From a virus: a stretch of DNA of 24,667 nucleotides. Of this stretch, positions 1,206 through 11,118 are shown in pieces. Within the stretch, counting starts at the first letter, position 1, and each line of letters starts with the position of its first letter. The notes beneath the pieces were generated by a model, which searched no databases, was not told the origin of the DNA, and saw only the letters and a list, made by a program, of their open reading frames with translations. The stretch is taken from positions 1-24,667 of IMG/VR virus record IMGVR_UViG_3300045110_000144; one strand, written 5' to 3'. The position numbers and the translations under genes are program-made.

Positions 1206-1284
1206 TGTCGCACCCCGGCTCGGAGTGAGTAGCGGTCATTCCGGGCTGCATAGGCCGTACGCACCCGTCGGCCTGGGTGCGACA
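1206..1284. repeat. Long-range inverted repeat with an inner hairpin
   Basis: TGTCGCACCC at 1206-1215 is the exact reverse complement of GGGTGCGACA at 1275-1284. Inside lies a further pair, AGGCCG (1252-1257) with CGGCCT (1269-1274), which abuts the right outer arm. Together they could fold the leader RNA upstream of the portal gene into a branched structure. No known riboswitch or RNA family was recognised. Confidence 0.45.
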
Positions 1285-1297
1285 CACCTCACACGAT

Positions 1298-1325
1298 TTC
1301 GAACTTCCACCCCTCCAAGTTCGAA
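1298..1325 (+). promoter_or_regulatory. Hairpin in portal leader overlapping the ribosome binding site
   Basis: TTCGAACTT (1298-1306) and AAGTTCGAA (1317-1325) are perfect 9-bp arms around a C-rich 10-nt loop. The right arm runs into the purine-rich GAAGAGAG (1323-1330), the best ribosome-binding candidate for a TTG start at 1340. The stem could therefore mask part of the site or tune portal translation. No T-tract follows, so a terminator is unlikely. The hairpin also argues against the longer portal start at 1277. Confidence 0.5.
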
Positions 1326-1339
1326 GAGAGCAGATCCCC

Positions 1340-3706
1340 TTGCCCCAAGGTTACACAGCCGGCGCTGCGGCTCGTCCTGCCGTGGGTGGCAACGACCCAT
1401 CGCGCGGGCCATCGCTGGCCGTGGACAACACGCGCGAGGAGGAGGACGACTATGACGTCGCCAAGCTGCGTCGGCAGTATCAGGATTTTCAGGGTGCCAA
1501 GCGCGAGGAGCTGAAAGAGCAGCGTATTGCGAGACATTACTACGCCGGCGATCAGTGGTCTTCCGACGAGCTGAAAATACTTAAGGCGCGCCGGCAGCCG
1601 GCGATCACCCGCAACCGCATCGCGCGCAAGATCGACGCTGTGGTGGGCTTGGTCGAGCGCTTGCGGCAAGATCCCAAAGCCTATCCGCGTTCGCCGCCGC
1701 CAGCCTTGCCGCAGGGCATCGCGGCGGTAATGGGCGATGTTGGCATACCGCCCCATCCGGGGGATCCGGCGAGTATGCCGCTACCGCAGGCCGGCGACGA
1801 GGGCATGGGCGTGCCGCCAACGGGGCTCGCCGCCGGCCTCGGGCTGGCCGGCCCACCTCCACCTAATCCAGCCTCACCGCCCGGTATTGGCACACCAATG
1901 CCGGAAGGTGGCTCAGGCGGGCCGCCACTACCAGCCCAACCACCGGGGGCACTTCCTCCCTCCCCGGGCGGTCAGCCGGGTGGCCCGCCTCCGCCGCCGC
2001 AGCAGGATGAGGACGACGAGCCGGGCGATCTGCAGGAGGAGGGCGCTGACGTTGCCACGGCCGCAATACGGTATGTGCTCGACAACTGCGAATGGCAGAC
2101 GCACAGCACCAATGCCGCGCGTGAGGGCGCTATCAACGGCGTCGGCGGCATAGAGCTCGCCCTCGAGGAGGGCGACCACAGCAAGCGGCAGCCGCAAGCA
2201 GATATGTCGTGGGACATGATCGGGGCGCTTGAGGGCGAGCAGCGCGATCAGGTCGACCCCGACGTCACCATGGCGGACATCGACCCGGACACGGTGTTCT
2301 ACGATCCGCGCAGCATGCGTCTCGACTTCTCCGACGCCCGGTATATGGGCGTGGCCAAATGGCTCGACCTTGATCTGGCGAGGGAAATGTTCCCCGACCA
2401 GGAGGAACAGCTCAACGGGCTAGTGTCGGTCGGCACGGAGATCGAGACCTGGCAGCAGCGCGATCGCGAGCGGCGCTGGATCGATGTCAACGACAAGCGG
2501 CTATTCGTCGTCGAGCACTGGTACAAGCGGCGCGGCGATTGGTGGTGGTGCTTTTATACTGGCAATACGATATTGATGCGGGGCAAGTCTCCGTTCATCA
2601 ATGAGAAGAACAAGACCTTTTGCCGATTTATACTGTATAGCGTCAATAGCGATCATGATGGTGATCGCTATGGCTTCGTCCGCAATTTGAAGCCGCTGCA
2701 GGACGAAATCAACGCGCGGGCCAGCAAGGCGCTGCACCTGATCAACGTGCGCCGCATTATCATGGAGGAGGGCGCGGCGCCCGACATCGAAGTCGTGCGG
2801 CAAGAGGCGGTGCGGCCCGATGGCGTTATGGTGGTGTCGCCCGGCAAGCGCTTTGAGCTCGATGATCAAGCTCAGCTGAGCATGATTCAGGGGCAGCTCG
2901 AGTTCTTGCAGCAGGCAATCACCGAAGTTGAGAATTTTGGCCCCAATCCCGCCGTTATTGGGCAGGGGATCGAGAATAAGAGTGGGCGCGCGATTGCGCT
3001 GCTACAGCAAGCCGGCATTGCCGAGCTCGGGCCATATATCCTCTCCTACCGCGGCTGGAAAATTCGGGTCTATCGCGCCATCTGGAACATCATCCAGCAT
3101 AACTGGTCGGCCGAGCGTTGGATCCGCGTCACCGATAACGAGGGGCTGGCCAAGTTCCTCCTCCTCAACGGCGAGCGCTACAACGAGTACGGCCAGCCAT
3201 CGATCGTCAACGCGGTCGGTGACCTCGACGTGGACATTGTCCTGGATGAGGGGCCGGATTCCATCTCGCTGATGATGGACACCTACGATGCGCTGCAGGC
3301 GCTGGCGCAGCAGGGCACCGCGGTGCCGCCCGAAGTGCTCATCGAGCTCAGCCCGATACCGGCGGCGACCAAGCGCAAGCTGCTGAAGATCGTCAAGGAC
3401 GCGCAGAAGCCGGATCCCGAGGTCGAGCAGGTCAACCGGGCCGGGGCACTCGCCAATATAGACAAGACGGCCAGCGAGACCGCGAAGAACCAGGCCAGCG
3501 CGCAGAAGATGCTCGCCGAAATACCGGGGACGCAGGCGAGCGCCGGGCGCGATAAGGCGGCGGCGTTCCGGGATATCACCGACGCCGTGCTGGCGCAGCA
3601 TCGCGAGCAGCATCCGTCGCCGTTCGACGTGCCTGGGGCTATGCCGGCCGGGCCGGACGACGGCGGTATCGGCGGTGCTGGTCAGAACTTCCCGGTGGGG
3701 CAATAG
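1340..3706 (+). CDS. Portal protein, P22 type
   Basis: 788 aa from the TTG at 1340; a GTG at 1277 would give 809 aa. I prefer 1340 because GAAGAGAG lies 9 nt upstream and a hairpin occupies the extra 63 bases. The protein forms the dodecameric DNA-entry ring at one capsid vertex. Recognition rests on the N-terminal segment (ARHYYAGDQWS, then RNRIARKIDAVVGLVERLRQ and DPKAYPR) and the following ATAAIRYVLDN and INGVGGIEL, which are typical of P22-like portals. Later segments (DPDTVFYDPRS, DGDRYGFVRNLKPLQDEIN, IENKSGRAIALLQQ) also fit. Residues 118-229 are a Pro/Gly-rich insertion that splits the usually continuous join between DPKAYPR and the EEGADVATAAIR segment. The C-terminus is Ala/Gln-rich and helical, as expected for a portal barrel. 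The next gene starts 9 nt downstream. Confidence 0.92.
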   Translation: MPQGYTAGAAARPAVGGNDPSRGPSLAVDNTREEEDDYDVAKLRRQYQDFQGAKREELKEQRIARHYYAGDQWSSDELKILKARRQPAITRNRIARKIDAVVGLVERLRQDPKAYPRSPPPALPQGIAAVMGDVGIPPHPGDPASMPLPQAGDEGMGVPPTGLAAGLGLAGPPPPNPASPPGIGTPMPEGGSGGPPLPAQPPGALPPSPGGQPGGPPPPPQQDEDDEPGDLQEEGADVATAAIRYVLDNCEWQTHSTNAAREGAINGVGGIELALEEGDHSKRQPQADMSWDMIGALEGEQRDQVDPDVTMADIDPDTVFYDPRSMRLDFSDARYMGVAKWLDLDLAREMFPDQEEQLNGLVSVGTEIETWQQRDRERRWIDVNDKRLFVVEHWYKRRGDWWWCFYTGNTILMRGKSPFINEKNKTFCRFILYSVNSDHDGDRYGFVRNLKPLQDEINARASKALHLINVRRIIMEEGAAPDIEVVRQEAVRPDGVMVVSPGKRFELDDQAQLSMIQGQLEFLQQAITEVENFGPNPAVIGQGIENKSGRAIALLQQAGIAELGPYILSYRGWKIRVYRAIWNIIQHNWSAERWIRVTDNEGLAKFLLLNGERYNEYGQPSIVNAVGDLDVDIVLDEGPDSISLMMDTYDALQALAQQGTAVPPEVLIELSPIPAATKRKLLKIVKDAQKPDPEVEQVNRAGALANIDKTASETAKNQASAQKMLAEIPGTQASAGRDKAAAFRDITDAVLAQHREQHPSPFDVPGAMPAGPDDGGIGGAGQNFPVGQ
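1691..2026 (+). other. Pro/Gly-rich disordered insertion inside portal
   Basis: About 112 codons (portal residues 118-229, start at 1340) encode almost only Pro, Gly, Ala, Met and a few polar residues. They include several polyproline runs and end in an acidic patch (DEDDEP). The frame stays open and canonical portal sequence resumes on both sides, so this is an in-frame insertion and not a frameshift. It is expected to be disordered and would protrude from the portal body. Confidence 0.8.
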
Positions 3707-3715
3707 GGCGAGGCC

Positions 3716-4324
3716 ATGGCGCGCGGCGATCAGCAACGAGTGCAGGAACGGCCTGGGGCGCATACCTACCGGCGGGGCTACTGGTATCTCGCCGGCGACG
3801 AAACGATGCTCGTCATTGCGGGCGGCACCATCAATGCCAATCAGTTTAGGCTCTACCCTTTTCGTATTCGCAGCCTGGTGCAGATTGTTAATCTCGGTAC
3901 GCGGATCACATTCGGCGCGGCCGGGCTGATGCAGTTGGCTATCTATCCGGCCAGCAAGCGAACACTACAGCCGGAAGGCTTGCCGGTGGCGGCAACCGGC
4001 GACATTGATATCACCACGGCACAAAATGTTTTTGGTGCCGTCATCGGTGGGTCGGCCATCCTGCCGCGCGGCGTCTATTGGGGAGCTTCGCTCACTAATA
4101 TAGCTGGTGTGATCGCTCAGACTGGCGGCGCCACTTGCAGCCATGCGGGCGCGTTGGTGGGAGCCTCCACGCAGGACATATTGACCAACACGGCGACCAG
4201 CGCCACACCAATTCGCTTCAATGGCAGCGTTCCTTACGGCACTTGGCCGGATTGCACGAAAGTGGCCCTGAGCGACATTGCCAACGGTGCTTATGCCCTG
4301 CTCCAGTTCCAGGTGGCGCCATGA
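3716..4324 (+). CDS. Paralogue A of a tandem family of three (putative virion surface protein)
   Basis: 202 aa, ATG at 3716 with a purine-rich GGGCGAGG upstream. It shares an ordered motif series with the next two genes: an aromatic GYWY near residues 21-24, YPFRIRSLVQI near 47-57, LGTRITFGAAG, AIYPAS, TLQPEGLPVAATGDI, a G-A-hydrophobic block, YGTW, and the terminal LLQFQVAP. The pattern suggests one beta-rich domain of about 200 aa. There is no signal peptide or membrane helix. The stop overlaps the next ATG (ATGA at 4321-4324). The family is not one I recognise. Its place between portal and scaffold suggests a capsid decoration, head-fibre or tail-surface protein, but that is inference. Confidence 0.75.
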   Translation: MARGDQQRVQERPGAHTYRRGYWYLAGDETMLVIAGGTINANQFRLYPFRIRSLVQIVNLGTRITFGAAGLMQLAIYPASKRTLQPEGLPVAATGDIDITTAQNVFGAVIGGSAILPRGVYWGASLTNIAGVIAQTGGATCSHAGALVGASTQDILTNTATSATPIRFNGSVPYGTWPDCTKVALSDIANGAYALLQFQVAP

Positions 4325-4926
4325 GCATTCCATCGCGCGCCGCGTATCAGGTTACGAGCGACACCGATCCGCCGCGCTATGCGCCGGGGTGTTGGTATAC
4401 GACGTTGCCGGTCGTGGCTGCTGCCGCAAGCGCCTCCTCCGCTAATGCGCTGCGTGCCTATCCGTGGGTGGTTCGTAGCCGTGTGCGCATCCAAGCCTTG
4501 GGCGCGCGCGTGACGACAGGCGCGGCGGGCCTGGCACAGTTGGCGATCTATCGTGCCAACAGCGCAACCCTTAATCCAATGGGTATTCCGCTGGCCAATA
4601 CCGGCGACATTGACGTGAGCGGAACCGGCAACGTCAATGGAGCCCTGGTGCAGGGTATTGTCACCATCAATCCCGGTTTGCACTACTTTGCATATTGGAC
4701 GAATATCGGCGTCACATGGCAGGGCTCTCCATTGAGCTATACCCCTGCCGCGGTGATCTTCGGGGGGCCATCACAGACCGTCATTGCGGCAGCCGCCACC
4801 ACTTCCGCCGTGCTTAAAAGCGCTGGTGCGACCTATGGCTCTGCTTGGCCTAATGCCGATCAGTTGACATGGGCCGAGGCGGGCAGTTCGCAAACCTTCC
4901 TCGGTCAATTTCAGGTGGCCACGTAG
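4321..4926 (+). CDS. Paralogue B of the tandem family
   Basis: 201 aa from the ATG at 4321, which overlaps the upstream TGA. An open frame extends further upstream to 4135 but would run deep inside paralogue A, so the overlapping ATG is preferred. It carries the same motif series: GCWY, YPWVVRSRVRI, LGARVTTGAAG, AIYRAN, TLNPMGIPLANTGDI, GLHYFAYWTNIG, GSAWP, and a terminal LGQFQVAT. The N-terminal 25 residues differ from those of A and C, as if the conserved core carried gene-specific leaders. TAG at 4924-4926 is followed directly by the next ATG, so the three genes are probably translated together from one message. Function unknown. Confidence 0.75.
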   Translation: MSIPSRAAYQVTSDTDPPRYAPGCWYTTLPVVAAAASASSANALRAYPWVVRSRVRIQALGARVTTGAAGLAQLAIYRANSATLNPMGIPLANTGDIDVSGTGNVNGALVQGIVTINPGLHYFAYWTNIGVTWQGSPLSYTPAAVIFGGPSQTVIAAAATTSAVLKSAGATYGSAWPNADQLTWAEAGSSQTFLGQFQVAT

Positions 4927-5526
4927 ATGCCGCGCGATCAGTACTCTCCGCAGGCCGACGCCGAGCCGGGCTACTGCCCGGGGTTCTGGTATCACATCGC
5001 CGCCGGTCAGGTCCAGGCGGGAGTGGCGGTCAATGTCACGCCGCGGATGCTTCCCTTTCAGGTCCGCGCGCTGGTTGATATCGTGGCGCTGGGCGCCCGC
5101 ATTACAACTCTTGCGGCGGCGGGGTTTTGCAGCTTTGCGATCTATCGGGCCAATGGCAACACGCTCTTGCCGATAGGCCGGCCTGTCGCCAGTACGGGAC
5201 CGATTGCGACGGACCTTGCCGTCAACGTCAGCGGTGCGCTGACCCAAGGCCGCGCGCAACTGTCTCCCGGCCTGCATTGGTTCGCTGTGCAGACCGATAA
5301 TGCCACGGTCGTCTTTCAGACGCTCAGTAACGCGCAGAACAGTTCGTTTGTCGGAGCGCCGACTCAGGACGGCATCACCAGCGCTGCCGCTGCCGTCGTC
5401 AGCTATCGCAGTGGCACCGCGCAGCCCTTTGGCGCTTGGCTTGACCTGACCGATCCGGCACTGACCTTCCCTAACATCGGCAACGCCACCTGCCTCGGCC
5501 AGTTCCAGGTCGCGCCGGCCTCGTAA
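4927..5526 (+). CDS. Paralogue C of the tandem family
   Basis: 199 aa, ATG immediately after the stop of paralogue B. It has the same ordered motifs: GFWY, LPFQVRALVDI, LGARITTLAAAG, AIYRAN, TLLPIGRPVASTGPI, GLHWFAVQTDN, FGAWLDL, and the ending LGQFQVAPAS. By eye B and C are closer to each other in the first half (LGARxT, AIYRAN), while A and C share the start MxRxDQ and the segment GAPTQD/GASTQD. No signal peptide or transmembrane helix is seen. The protein is rich in Ala, Thr, Ser and Val, typical of beta-structured virion surface domains. Function not recognised. Confidence 0.75.
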   Translation: MPRDQYSPQADAEPGYCPGFWYHIAAGQVQAGVAVNVTPRMLPFQVRALVDIVALGARITTLAAAGFCSFAIYRANGNTLLPIGRPVASTGPIATDLAVNVSGALTQGRAQLSPGLHWFAVQTDNATVVFQTLSNAQNSSFVGAPTQDGITSAAAAVVSYRSGTAQPFGAWLDLTDPALTFPNIGNATCLGQFQVAPAS

Positions 5527-5541
5527 GCGATAGGAAACACC

Positions 5542-8202
5542 ATGCTGCGCAACCTGCTTTATGCAGGTCTTGGCGTTGTCCTCGTTGGCGCTACCGCCTG
5601 GGCCGGCGGCGGTACTGCGGTCCTCAACGCCGACGGTACGGTGACCTTCACTCCGGACGCCAACTTCAACGGCACGGCCAGCTTCACCTATACGGTGAGC
5701 GACGGCACGACGACGAGCCCGCCGGCAACGGTGACGGTCAACGTGGCGCCGGCACCGGTCAACCACGCGCCGGTGGCCAATGCCGACACCCTGGCAGCGA
5801 CCGAGAACACCCCGGTCACCTACACCGCAGCTCAGCTCCTCGACAACGACAGCGACAGCGACAGCGATACATTGACCATCGCCTCGGTGACCAGCGGTGG
5901 CGGCAGCAGTATCAACGACCAGACGCTGCGCTTCGGCCAGTTGACCAAGATCGGAGCCGGCGAGGCGGCACTTGTCGGGGCTGAGGTGAACCAGGTCAGT
6001 TGCACCGGCAGCGCCGATTTCACATGGACGGTCAGCTCGCATGCCGCCGTGGTTGCCCCGGCCGCTGCGCTCGGGGCCGGCCCCTACGTCTACAATTGCT
6101 CGTTCAACGACGGCGCTGATACCGCCGTCGTCACGATCGACATTGACGCCAATGCCTACGATGTCACGACCTTCGCGCAGATGACGGCGGCGACAGCCGA
6201 GCAACTGACCAGCGCAAACGCCATCATCTACTACATCCGGCCGGATGCGAGGCTGGCCCCGTGGGATAACAATGCCTTCGCGAAGAACGGCAACACCCAC
6301 ACCGGCCTGTGGACGATCACCAGCCGCGACTTCGCGCATCCCGGCGTCATGGAGGCGTACAACACCGGCGGGGCGGCGACGACGAGCAACATTTACAACA
6401 GGTGGATCAAGTTCGATCACGTCGTGTTCGATGGCTCGCGCTACGATCGCCTCGGTGGCTTCGGCACTGCCAAGGCGCTGCTCCGCATGTCGACGGCCCA
6501 GACCGGGCCGGTAACAATTAGCAACAGCGAGTTCTTCGGCAAGAGCTTCGCGCTTTGCGGCCCCGGCCAGAATTACTACGGGGCGATTAACTCGAGCGGC
6601 TTCACCCAGACCGACAATATCGTCTTCAGCAACAACATCATCCACGACATCAAGGCCGGCGTGGTCGGGCCGCACAACAATCACGGGTCGGCTGGCACCT
6701 TCACGATGTCAGGCAACCACATCTACAACATGACCGGCGACGGGATTAAGTTCTCGGGGGACGCGCCGGACGGCACCATTGTCGAGGACAATATCGTCGA
6801 CAGTCCCGCCGTCGACGCTTGGCAGATTACGCTCGACGGAGCGACCGGCGGAGCCAATGCCAAGCAGACCCATAGCGGGGCGCTGAGTGGCAGCGCCGAT
6901 GGCCAGAAGGCGCTCTTTTACACGCAGATCACGCCGCTCGACACGATCGGTGCCGGGGGCGGTGCCGACGAGGTGTTTTTTACGAATGGGGGCCTCACGG
7001 TCAAACGCATCGCTAATGGCCACGTCGTGGTTACGGCGCTCGACACCGACGGCGCGACCGCCATATCGATGGAGAGCACCAACCAACTGCTCACCGAGCT
7101 GCGCAACGACATTCTGGTCAGCATTGATACCGCCGGCACCAGCCGCCTTTACCTGTGGACCGAAGGCGCCGACTGTACCGGGGCGTGGACGGCGGCGGCG
7201 AGCCAGACGGCGGCAGGCCAGACGCTCGATCTGACCGGCACCAGCATCATCGGCGACCCCTCCACCGACAGCCACGAATGGAAAACCAACCGCGTCGCCT
7301 TCTGGCAGGGGGTTGCGCCCGACATCACCAGCGACGCGGTGCGCGCCAACTTCGTCCAGACGACGCAGAGCTACACGGCGGATCCGTCATGGCCCGGCAT
7401 GATGGCCGACCCGGCTCTGTCGGTGGCCGCCTACGGTAGCCCCATCGTCGACTTCTACGGCGACCTCAACACCATCTGGCGGGCCGGCATTAACCAGGGA
7501 ACTGGCGGTAACTTCGTCGATACTGGCGTGTTCGACAGGGTCCACGGCGACTTGATGCAGAACATCCCAGGGACCGGGTTTGCAGTGCATGGCTGGCAAA
7601 TCCGGCGCAACCTTCTCTTCTCCGGTCGGAGCGACGTGCTGCGCGCCAACGACCGCTTCAACAGCCACGAGTTCCAGGGGATTTTCTTCGAGGATATCGC
7701 CGACGCCAATTACACCGACATGGTCATCGAGAAAAACCTGATCGTCGAGGCGGGCTCGCTGCAGGGTGTCAGCCTGTTCAATGGGATAACCTCGTCTCTC
7801 CTGAACAATACCGCGGTCCAGGTGCCGACCTGGGTGCCGGTGCCGTCGAGCTTCATTCCGACGATCAGCGTTGACGTTAATTTTACACCTCTGGCGCCGA
7901 TGCACGGCAACAACGTCGCCAACAACGTCAGCAAGAGCAACACCGCGCTGTGTGCCACTGCCGGCCATACGGCGGCGCAATGCAGCCCGCCCGATGGCGG
8001 CCCCAGCGATACCGTCGTCAACAACACCGACACGACGCCGGCTACGGTGGGCACAAAAGCCTATTCCAGCATCTTCGTTGGGCCGTTTGACGAGACCGTC
8101 GATACGCCGGCGGAAGCCCTGGCGGCTTTCAGCGCCAAGCCTGGCGGGGCGCTCGCCATCAATGGCTGGGGGTGCTGCACCGATGGAGCCTTCCGGCCCT
8201 GA
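5542..8202 (+). CDS. Secreted-looking Ig-like/beta-helix protein (adhesin or spike candidate)
   Basis: 886 aa with ATAGGAAA upstream of the ATG. Residues 1-21 look like a signal peptide or membrane anchor, with a hydrophobic core and an AWA-type cleavage site. Residues 22-118 hold cadherin/tandem-95-like Ig repeats: [15 protein letters not shown], then [18 protein letters not shown] and a DNDSDSDSD turn. The first repeat lacks its usual opening half. From about 280 to 430, short Asn-rich rungs ([44 protein letters not shown]) indicate a right-handed parallel beta-helix. Residues about 440-600 differ and may be a jelly-roll (LamG-like) insertion. Beta-helix rungs return from about 650 ([24 protein letters not shown]). 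Such helices occur in tailspikes, polysaccharide lyases and adhesins; no catalytic residues are assignable. A signal peptide is unusual for a virion protein. Confidence 0.8.
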
Positions 8203-8249: not shown

Positions 8250-8330
8250 TACCACCCCGAAACGCCATGCTGCGCAGCTAACGCGCTCCGTGGCTACGTC
8301 AATCTCACGAAACGAGAAAGGGACGGCAAC

Positions 8331-9245
8331 ATGGCCGACACCGACGACCAAGCATTGTTTGAAGAGGCCCTATCGGGCGAGCCGGCGGCACCTGCCCCGG
8401 CTACCGACGAGATGGTCCTCACCGAGACGCCGACAGCGGAACCGCTGCCCGAAGGCGAACAGCCGCGCGATGAGCACGGCCGGTTTGCACCGAGGGCCGA
8501 CGGTACCGAGCAGCCCGCCGCGGAAGAAGAGCAGCCCGCCGAGCGGGAACGTGTCGTTCACACGGTCCCCATCAACGAGCTTCTCGCCGTTCGCGATCGG
8601 GCTCAGGCTGCCGAACGGGAACGCGACGAATACCGCCGACGAGTCGAAGAACGGGACAGACGCGAGCAACAGGCCGAACAGGCCCGGCGCCAGCAAGTCC
8701 CCGACATGCTTACCCAGCCGCAGCAGTATCACGCATGGGTCATGCAGCAGGTCCGTACCGAGCTGCAGCAGGAGCGCGAAGCGGCACGGGCGGGTATCGT
8801 CGATATCTCCATGCGCATGCAACATCGGCAGCATGGCGATACGTTCGTGCAGGCTTATCAGAGTCTGCAGAGCGAGTACCAGCGCGGCAACACCCAGCTG
8901 CGTAATTGGGTGGTCAACTCGCCCGACCCGGGCGAGGCGCTGATGACCTGGTGGGCAGATGTCTCGGCTCGGCAAGAGATCGGCAACGACTTTGCCGGCT
9001 TCAAACAACGTTACCGTGAGCAACTTAAGGCCGATCCGGCCTTTCAGAAGGAGCTCGCGGATTTCATTCGCGGCCGGCAGGCGCAAGCTGCGCAAGCCAA
9101 CCGCGGTGGCAATGGTGTCGTGCGTAACCGTCCCGGACTGCGCAGCATCCCGTCACTCACTCGAGCCACCGGCGCCGCCGATAGCGACGACCGCGCCGAG
9201 GAGAGCGAGGGGGGACTTCTCACTAGTGCGCTACGCCGGGGATAG
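8331..9245 (+). CDS. Scaffolding-like protein
   Basis: 304 aa, ATG at 8331 with AGAAAGGGA 7 nt upstream. The N-terminal 80 residues are acidic and low-complexity (Ala, Pro, Glu). Residues about 80-125 are extremely rich in Arg, Glu and Gln and should form a coiled coil. The middle is helical (TQPQQYHAWVMQQVRTEL, then a block around NWVVNSPDPGEALMTWWADV). The C-terminus is basic and Gly-rich. This layout, directly upstream of the major capsid gene, is what one expects of a capsid assembly scaffold, which guides shell assembly from inside the procapsid and is then lost. The identification rests on position and composition, not on a family signature. A minor internal head protein is the alternative. 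Confidence 0.7.
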   Translation: MADTDDQALFEEALSGEPAAPAPATDEMVLTETPTAEPLPEGEQPRDEHGRFAPRADGTEQPAAEEEQPAERERVVHTVPINELLAVRDRAQAAERERDEYRRRVEERDRREQQAEQARRQQVPDMLTQPQQYHAWVMQQVRTELQQEREAARAGIVDISMRMQHRQHGDTFVQAYQSLQSEYQRGNTQLRNWVVNSPDPGEALMTWWADVSARQEIGNDFAGFKQRYREQLKADPAFQKELADFIRGRQAQAAQANRGGNGVVRNRPGLRSIPSLTRATGAADSDDRAEESEGGLLTSALRRG

Positions 9246-9350: not shown

Positions 9351-10520
9351 ATGGCACTCACAACTATACAATCCAATAATAAGCTTGTTCAGTATCGCAA
9401 GGAGATCATCCGCGAATACGTCCGGGAGAACCTGTTCTCCCCGTACATGGGTGACGATCTCACCAGCATCATTCGTCTGCTCTACGACACCAAGAAGGGC
9501 GGCGAGCAGATCAATATCCCGATCGTTACCCGGCTCAACAGCCGCGGTAAGGGGCAGGGAACCCTGGTCGGCAACGAGGAGCGCATCGACAACTACGGCA
9601 TGCGCGTCTACGTCGACTGGGCAAGAAACGCTGTCAAAACGAACAAGGCAGAAGACCAGAAGGACAGCGCCGACGTCTTCGGTATTGCCAAGCCCCTGCT
9701 GAGTGATTGGGGCAAGGAGCTACAGCGCGACGAAATCATCGAAGCGCTGATGTCGATCCCGAGCGAGGCAGCCCCCGCAGGGCTTGGCTCGGACGAAGGC
9801 CAGCGCGTCAACGGCGTCCTCTATCAAAATGCCACGGCGGCGCAGAAGAACCAGTGGCAGACGGACAACTCCGACCGCATCCTGTACGGGGCAACTACCG
9901 CCAACCTGGTCGGCGGTAACCACGCCTCGGGCCTGACCAACGTCGACAACGCCGCCGACTTGTTCAACGCCAACGCTGTTGCGTTGATGAAGCTGTTGGC
10001 GAAGAAAGCCCAGCCGCGGATCAGGCCGTTCCAGCTCAAGGACGGCAGAGAGTACTTCGTCTGCTTCGCAGGCTCGCTGCCCTTCCGCGACTTTGCCGCG
10101 TCAATGCAGTCGGTTAACCAGAACGCGAGGCCACGCGAAAATCTCTCGGGCGTCGGCGGGGCACCAAACAACCTGATCTATCAAGATGGCGACGAGATGT
10201 ACCGCGGCGTCATCGTCCGGGAAGTGCCTGAGATTGATACCTACGTCGACGAGGTGTGGACGTCGCTGCTTACGGCAGGCGCCGGAGGCACGACGCGCGT
10301 CAACCCGGTGTTTCTCTGCGGACAAACGGCAGTCGCCATGCCCTACGGGCAAATGCCTCAGCCGACAGTGTTGGCCGAGGACGACTACGGGTTTGTCGAG
10401 GGAGCTGGCATCGAGATGTGCTACGGCGTCGCCAAGGTGGCTAAAAAGCATCCGATGGATGGTACCGCGCTCAAGCAGTGGGGCGTGGTGACGGGATTCT
10501 TCGCTTCGACAGCAACATAG
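9351..10520 (+). CDS. Major capsid protein, N4-gp56/DUF4043-like
   Basis: 389 aa, close to the usual length of this family. It makes the icosahedral shell and is expected to have the HK97 fold. Family features visible are the helical start (YRKEIIREYVRENLFSPYMG), the KGGEQINIPIVTRLNSRG segment near residues 49-66, then GNEERIDNYGMRVYVDWARN, and a long helix over PLLSDWGKELQRDEIIEAL. Further on come RPFQLKDGREYFVCFAG (near 225-240) and a C-terminal domain with GFVEGAGIEMCYGVAKVAKK. The scaffold-like gene precedes it, and a hairpin with a T-tract lies 15 nt after the stop, consistent with strong separate expression. Capsids in P22 itself belong to a different sequence family, so the head module is mosaic relative to P22. 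Confidence 0.92.
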   Translation: MALTTIQSNNKLVQYRKEIIREYVRENLFSPYMGDDLTSIIRLLYDTKKGGEQINIPIVTRLNSRGKGQGTLVGNEERIDNYGMRVYVDWARNAVKTNKAEDQKDSADVFGIAKPLLSDWGKELQRDEIIEALMSIPSEAAPAGLGSDEGQRVNGVLYQNATAAQKNQWQTDNSDRILYGATTANLVGGNHASGLTNVDNAADLFNANAVALMKLLAKKAQPRIRPFQLKDGREYFVCFAGSLPFRDFAASMQSVNQNARPRENLSGVGGAPNNLIYQDGDEMYRGVIVREVPEIDTYVDEVWTSLLTAGAGGTTRVNPVFLCGQTAVAMPYGQMPQPTVLAEDDYGFVEGAGIEMCYGVAKVAKKHPMDGTALKQWGVVTGFFASTAT

Positions 10521-10755: not shown

Positions 10756-11118
10756 ATGCCTAGAACTGTGCCTGCCCGCGTTACCCATCCCCAGCACGTG
10801 CATTTTCTCTCCAAGGACTTTACTGCGCCGGCTACCGTTATTCTCGGCACGCTGCCGGCTGGCGCCACCCCGATCAGCGTCATCTTCGCGAACGATGTGG
10901 CGATCTCAGGTGGCACGCCGGTGGCCTCCGTGGGAACTGTTGCCGCGCCCACCTCTTACTTGGCCGCCGGCACGCTTACCGCGGGCGTCAACGCGCCCCA
11001 GGCAGTGATTGCCGGCATCGGCAGGCCGACCGCCGACACCACACTGCAAGTGGTCTTTACCGGCGGCGTGACGACCGGGTCAGGCCGCGTCCATCTGCAG
11101 TACATCCCGGTCGTATAG
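10756..11118 (+). CDS. Putative head decoration or minor structural protein
   Basis: 120 aa, ATG with GAAGGA 8 nt upstream. The composition is rich in Val, Ala, Thr, Gly and Ile with no helix-forming charged stretches, indicating a small all-beta domain. It starts MPRTVPARVTHPQHVHFLS and ends VHLQYIPVV, with alternating hydrophobic residues throughout. There is no signal peptide. Small beta proteins right after the major capsid gene are often capsid decoration or stabilisation proteins, but no family was recognised. Its stop overlaps the ribosome binding site of the next gene. Confidence 0.65.
   Translation: MPRTVPARVTHPQHVHFLSKDFTAPATVILGTLPAGATPISVIFANDVAISGGTPVASVGTVAAPTSYLAAGTLTAGVNAPQAVIAGIGRPTADTTLQVVFTGGVTTGSGRVHLQYIPVV

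Follow-up and report, generated by a model that had tools for sequence, protein, structure and literature searches.

Three adjacent genes in the structural module of a P22-like podovirus, here called A, B and C, encode genuine paralogs that most probably act as three non-enzymatic accessory heads on the virion surface. Each head would consist of a paralog-specific arm, by which it is anchored, and an outward-facing CBM-like sandwich. We give this reading a probability of roughly 0.6. The protein family is already known at the profile and fold level.

The virus and its structural module

The window (the whole stretch analysed, 24,667 bases, IMG/VR record IMGVR_UViG_3300045110_000144) holds the structural module of the phage. 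Its gene order is portal, A, B, C and an 886-aa protein, scaffold, major capsid protein, a small gene in the cement position, an adaptor-position gene, a head-closure protein, ejection proteins and a 1203-aa protein with a peptidoglycan-binding domain, followed by a tail fibre and a receptor-binding and tailspike-type gene set. The features discussed below are:

1277..3706, + strand: P22-type portal gene, directly upstream of A (Pfam PF16510, E 4e-103; phrog_156)
3716..4324, + strand: gene A, 202 aa; N-terminal arm, residues 1-24 (MARGDQQRVQERPGAHTYRRGYWY), and beta-sandwich body
4306..4323, + strand: A/B junction, QFQVA codons of A (CAGTTCCAGGTGGCGCC) with a Shine-Dalgarno-like AGGTGG just before the start of B
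4321..4926, + strand: gene B, 201 aa; arm, residues 1-26, and beta-sandwich body
about 4908-4926, + strand: B/C junction, arranged as the A/B junction
4927..5526, + strand: gene C, 199 aa; arm, residues 1-22, and beta-sandwich body
5542..8202, + strand: 886-aa cadherin-like and right-handed beta-helix protein, in the portal-scaffold interval
8331..9245, + strand: scaffold gene, downstream border of the interval (placed between portal and capsid genes, as in Pam5)
9351..10520, + strand: major capsid protein (phrog_334, E 1e-54; PF13252)

The terminal tail set resembles that of Pseudanabaena phage Pam5 (gp16, E 1e-39; gp17, 2.5e-9; gp18, 7e-7). Since this set is present, the ordinary adsorption genes are located elsewhere in the phage, and A-B-C is an extra. 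The gene in the cement position (10756-11118) is weakly similar to the cement of phage Pam1 (E 0.004). The nearest prophage portals are from Hyphomicrobiales (Bradyrhizobium, Mesorhizobium, Neorhizobium, Sinorhizobium, Devosia, and Methylobacterium), which points to an alphaproteobacterium as the probable host. The portal itself carries a proline/glycine-rich insertion of roughly 100 residues (about residues 140-255), which is also found in the IMG/VR contigs L004 and L005 and is absent from Pam1, Pam5, Pan3, and CBW1004C-Prop1.

Three paralogs and their junctions

The initial annotation, made from the sequence alone, had described three adjacent plus-strand genes of 202, 201 and 199 aa at 3716-5526, and these are present. 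In pairwise BLASTP, A and B share 38% identity over 158 aa (E 1e-30), A and C share 42% over 202 aa (E 1e-33), and B and C share 41% over 201 aa (E 3e-31). Plain BLASTP similarity is thus already significant and far above chance. The copies had been called strongly diverged, which is fair at 38-42% identity, but they still align easily, with about 50 invariant positions. The series of ordered motifs said to be common to all three holds except for LGxRxTxxAAG, which fits only A and B; the equivalent stretch in C is LGARITTLAAAG, with one extra residue.

Gene A starts 9 bases past the portal stop. As first described, A and B overlap by ATGA, and the ATG of C directly abuts the TAG stop of B. The QFQVA codons are CAGTTCCAGGTGGCG in gene A and CAATTTCAGGTGGCC in gene B, which places AGGTGG directly ahead of the next start in both cases, while C, with no coupled copy after it, has GTC instead. 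Judged from the sequence, AGGTGG would be the ribosome-binding site and translation of the three genes would be coupled. Because QFQVA is kept in C, the motif is not merely a ribosome site.

Conserved arms and fast-evolving bodies

The proposal that the genes represent one family retained as three co-translated copies is supported. L004 and L005 likewise have the A-B-C series, placed after the portal and ahead of the scaffold. Their A, B, and C orthologs are 63-71% identical to those of the window, and the portal is 96% identical. In a maximum-likelihood tree each paralog forms its own clade with 95-99% bootstrap support, which places the triplication before the split of the three phages. When viral contigs were scanned with B alone and with C alone, no further relative was confirmed. 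In L005, a 79-aa Gly/Ser-rich low-complexity ORF (L005:5681-5917) lies between portal and A; it is not in the window.

In each paralog, the N-terminal ~22 residues hardly vary among the three phages. Up to the WY motif, 20 of 23 arm positions are invariant in A, 23 of 24 in B and 20 of 21 in C, compared with 97/177, 82/174, and 113/176 positions of the respective bodies (pooled, 63/68 vs. 292/527; Fisher p 1.3e-10). Whole-gene dN between the window and its relatives is 0.22-0.32 for A, B, and C and 0.02-0.08 for portal, scaffold, and capsid, and at the protein level the bodies diverge several-fold faster than portal and capsid. dN/dS of the three genes is about 0.2, with no sign of positive selection. 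Body dS is high (0.8-2.2), so that the divergence partly reflects old or exchanged alleles and not amino-acid change alone. Arm dS is lower than body dS in all nine comparisons, which hints that whole bodies may have been exchanged behind fixed arms, on the evidence of arms of only 22-25 codons each.

Fold and family membership

The family had been called unrecognised, and this no longer stands: A, B, and C all match the same family, phrog_25864 (PHROGs; function unknown, 193 positions), with E values of 3e-7, 2e-8, and 3e-4, and a relative has a solved structure (9jwb_Z). With this shared family and the BLASTP similarity, neither of the outcomes that the initial annotation had set as refuting came about. 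The library entry carries neither a function nor a tandem arrangement, in contrast to the three tandem copies of the window. A Pfam search of the three proteins returned no family; a match of C to HTH_39 (E 0.03) fell below the cut-off and was attributed to chance. PDB sequence matches to YrdA, Homer3, and MotA (E 0.03 or worse) were also dismissed.

AlphaFold2 models were made for A and B, and the beta-sandwich is well predicted for B only (pLDDT about 84-93 at residues 41-130, with a disordered arm at residues 1-17). The top PDB match of the B model is 9jwb_Z (Foldseek E 5e-10), on which it superposes with Z 20.9 over 176 residues (rmsd 2.7, 19% identity; VIA). The next matches are the Bxb1 tail tip (Z 13.6) and the central fibre of Mycobacteriophage Douge (Z 13.2). 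The A model is weak (mean pLDDT 61), yet 9jwb_Z again comes first (E 4e-3, Z 9.3). The arms have low pLDDT in both models. Profile similarity extends over the sandwich in all three proteins, each of which stands alone with a short arm before the sandwich, and they thus belong to the family. The B sandwich is also similar to CBM6, CBM32, and CBM35 at Z about 6, with no sequence similarity; below Z 8, this likeness may reflect a common arrangement only. A TNF/C1q likeness is weak in Foldseek (E 0.04-0.1) and was not used as evidence for a trimer. P22-like Dec, lambda gpD, and Hoc are not among the top fold matches listed, an absence that is not evidence.

Relatives of known virion location

A profile built from nine sequences (A, B, and C of the window, L004, and L005) matched A4L_25 of cyanophage A4 (Anabaena phage A-4L) with E 1e-5. 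This protein, labelled 'Plastocyanin-like domain-containing protein', is chain Z of 9jwb, the capsid asymmetric unit of A4, which comprises seven major capsid chains and this one chain. There would then be 60 copies on the T=7 shell, a number compatible with a single monomer on each hexamer or with a trimer at the three-fold axis. Like A, B, and C, A4L_25 is a standalone protein of ~200 aa with an N-terminal arm followed by the same beta-sandwich. It differs from them in being single-copy and in having its gene among tail genes, and A4 belongs to the Saffermanviridae, whereas the window phage is P22-like.

The same profile also matched gp2 of Rhizobium phage RHph_N1_10 (E 5e-36). In Nostoc phage N1 it picked up three proteins (E 4e-12, 2e-8, and 3e-5), and in the tail fibre of Rhodobacter phage RcRhea the match was to the C-terminal domain (E 1e-7). 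The neck-fibre protein gp80 of phage A-1(L) entered at the next iteration (E 3e-10); BLASTP independently links it to the N1 proteins (E 3e-9). These capsid, neck-fibre, and tail-fibre relatives (the A4 subunit, gp80, and tail-fibre C-terminal domains) support the virion-surface role that the initial annotation had suggested. In A-1(L), the operon gp82-gp81-gp80 gives rise to a bead-chain neck fibre; gp80 was detected among the virion proteins by mass spectrometry, was placed at the neck-fibre tip by the authors on the basis of virion mass spectrometry and a recombinant complex, and was modelled by them as a trimer (PMC10966104). The gp80 module did not bind to the host in the published assay (PMC10966104), so ligand binding is no rule of the family.

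Proteins of the gp80/N1 group share with A, B, and C the arm, an aromatic [GN]xW[YF]-like motif and then the sandwich. However, A-1(L) is a contractile-tailed Anabaena myophage in which the gp80 gene follows gp82 and gp81, whereas the window phage is a podovirus. No gp81 or gp82 homolog was found among the window proteins (best E 0.12), in a record that may be a fragment, and because these homologs are missing, membership in an A-1(L)-type neck-fibre system was rejected. Phages N1, YongM2, and Dfl-JY23 carry the same three co-directional paralogs, in one-to-one correspondence, behind their neck-fibre genes, and A-1(L) has one. The window triplet and the cyanophage triplet form separate clades (97/93), so triplication happened twice, independently, on a tree in which some branches are long. 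In Dolichospermum phage Dfl-JY23, a 650-aa protein annotated as alkaline phosphatase D (L170:1532-3484) is encoded between the gp82-like and gp81-like genes.

Among the tail-fibre relatives, RcRhea gp19, which has a DUF2793 N-terminus, contains the same domain by profile, and Douge gp20 and the Bxb1 tail tip are alike by fold (Z 13). All three domains are fused to long tail-tip fibre proteins, C-terminally in gp19, whereas A, B, and C stand alone.

Proposed role and alternatives

Under the favoured reading, the short paralog-specific N-terminal arm would plug each protein into a conserved component of the virion that the same operon encodes, either the capsid lattice or the portal vertex, with each arm selecting its own site. 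The beta-sandwich would face outward and most likely contact host-surface glycans or another surface ligand. Ligand binding is plausible given the CBM-like fold and the fast-evolving body. The position in the head operon favours the capsid lattice or portal vertex over the tail tip, yet the A4 gene lies among tail genes, and with homologs located at capsid, neck fibre, and tail fibre, the exact site is not transferable from them. On this reading, phrog_25864, a poorly known surface family, gains a fold, relatives of known virion location and a modular logic of conserved arm and fast-changing head. That triplication took place twice independently suggests an advantage in having three distinct heads, which bears on the chemical diversity of phage surfaces.

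The three proteins could instead form a single 1:1:1 A:B:C heterotrimer, a homotrimeric head diversified by gene triplication, by a logic comparable to that of C1q with its A, B, and C chains. The putative coupling of translation and the strict retention of all three genes in three phages speak for such an assembly, as does the independent cyanophage triplication, kept 1:1 in three phages in place of a single gp80 modelled as a trimer. The single chain per capsid asymmetric unit in A4 fits a monomer per hexamer equally well, however, and three sites would explain the different arms just as well; we regard the heterotrimer as a tentative and rather unlikely explanation. The same doubt attaches to a wider proposal, in which either an obligate heterotrimeric head arose from a homotrimeric knob of the capsid or fibre, or the paralogs were sorted to the three classes of T=7 three-fold site, a step that would have been taken twice, in P22-like podoviruses and in N1/A-1(L) cyanophages. 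On a T=7 lattice such sites fall into one strict class and two local ones, and three proteins that reinforce them and bind nothing outside would be pure capsid cement. The A-B-C position in the head operon is consistent with this, and the A4 relative lies in the asymmetric unit of a capsid termed 'double-stabilized' in the title of its published account (PNAS 2025, e2423403122). But the gene at 10756-11118 already occupies the cement position, the evolutionary rate of the bodies greatly exceeds that of the lattice to which they would attach, and Pam1, Pam5, Pan3, and the 63 prophage relatives lack a family member in the stretches searched, which makes pure cement unlikely.

Least probable, and in our estimate improbable, is a composite fibre or spike built by A-B-C with the 886-aa beta-helix protein, whose gene adjoins theirs in the window. 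A parallel exists in RHph_N1_10, where the single-copy family member gp2 and the next protein, gp3 (729 aa; L007:554-3399), have an N-terminal stretch of ~28 residues in common (57.7% over 26 residues, E 1e-4), as though a single anchor peptide served two distinct heads. Against this, L004 and L005 retain A-B-C without the 886-aa gene, and none of the arms matched the 886-aa protein when searched against the proteins of the window.

The portal-scaffold interval as a cargo site

Relatives of the phage were gathered with a mixed portal alignment, which yielded 80 viral and 63 genome loci; the first portal patterns had reached only L004 and L005. In the 99 relatives with both portal and capsid genes found, the median portal-to-capsid distance is 1.36 kb (54 viral or cultured relatives, a set that includes near-duplicates) and 1.17 kb (45 prophages). 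This gap has room for a scaffold only, and the interval is usually empty. Distances above 2.5 kb occur in 10 of the 54 viral or cultured and 3 of the 45 prophage relatives. No family member was found within the stretches searched of Pam1, Pam5, Pan3, CBW1004C-Prop1, and the 63 prophage relatives, which makes A-B-C accessory.

The interval is filled by a pectate-lyase-like tailspike-type protein in four loci (L031, L032, L034, and L035), by a lysophospholipase-like esterase protein in L038 and elsewhere by several unknown proteins. Downstream of the portal, L041 encodes a protein that carries the A/B/C domain at its C-terminus and has a GDSL-esterase match below threshold; this contig ends before the scaffold. 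From these loci (L019-L161), the interval emerges as a variable cargo site of P22-like phages, occupied by surface-type genes, where more such genes can be sought.

The 886-aa protein has an N-terminal signal-like stretch ahead of its cadherin-like domains and right-handed beta-helix. In L004 and L005, C joins the scaffold directly. The gene is bracketed by an imperfect direct repeat (18/20; GAAACACCATGCTGCGCAAC at 5534 and GAAACGCCATGCTGCGCAGC at 8259), which suggests that it was inserted by recombination.

After the portal of L079-L081 (e.g., L080:3056-3625), there are related acidic proteins of 190-229 aa, one of which was searched against Pfam and PHROGs with no match. Their 'SGLNPSSAAIGD..LYVSGTGF' region resembles an IPT/TIG-type Ig domain by eye.
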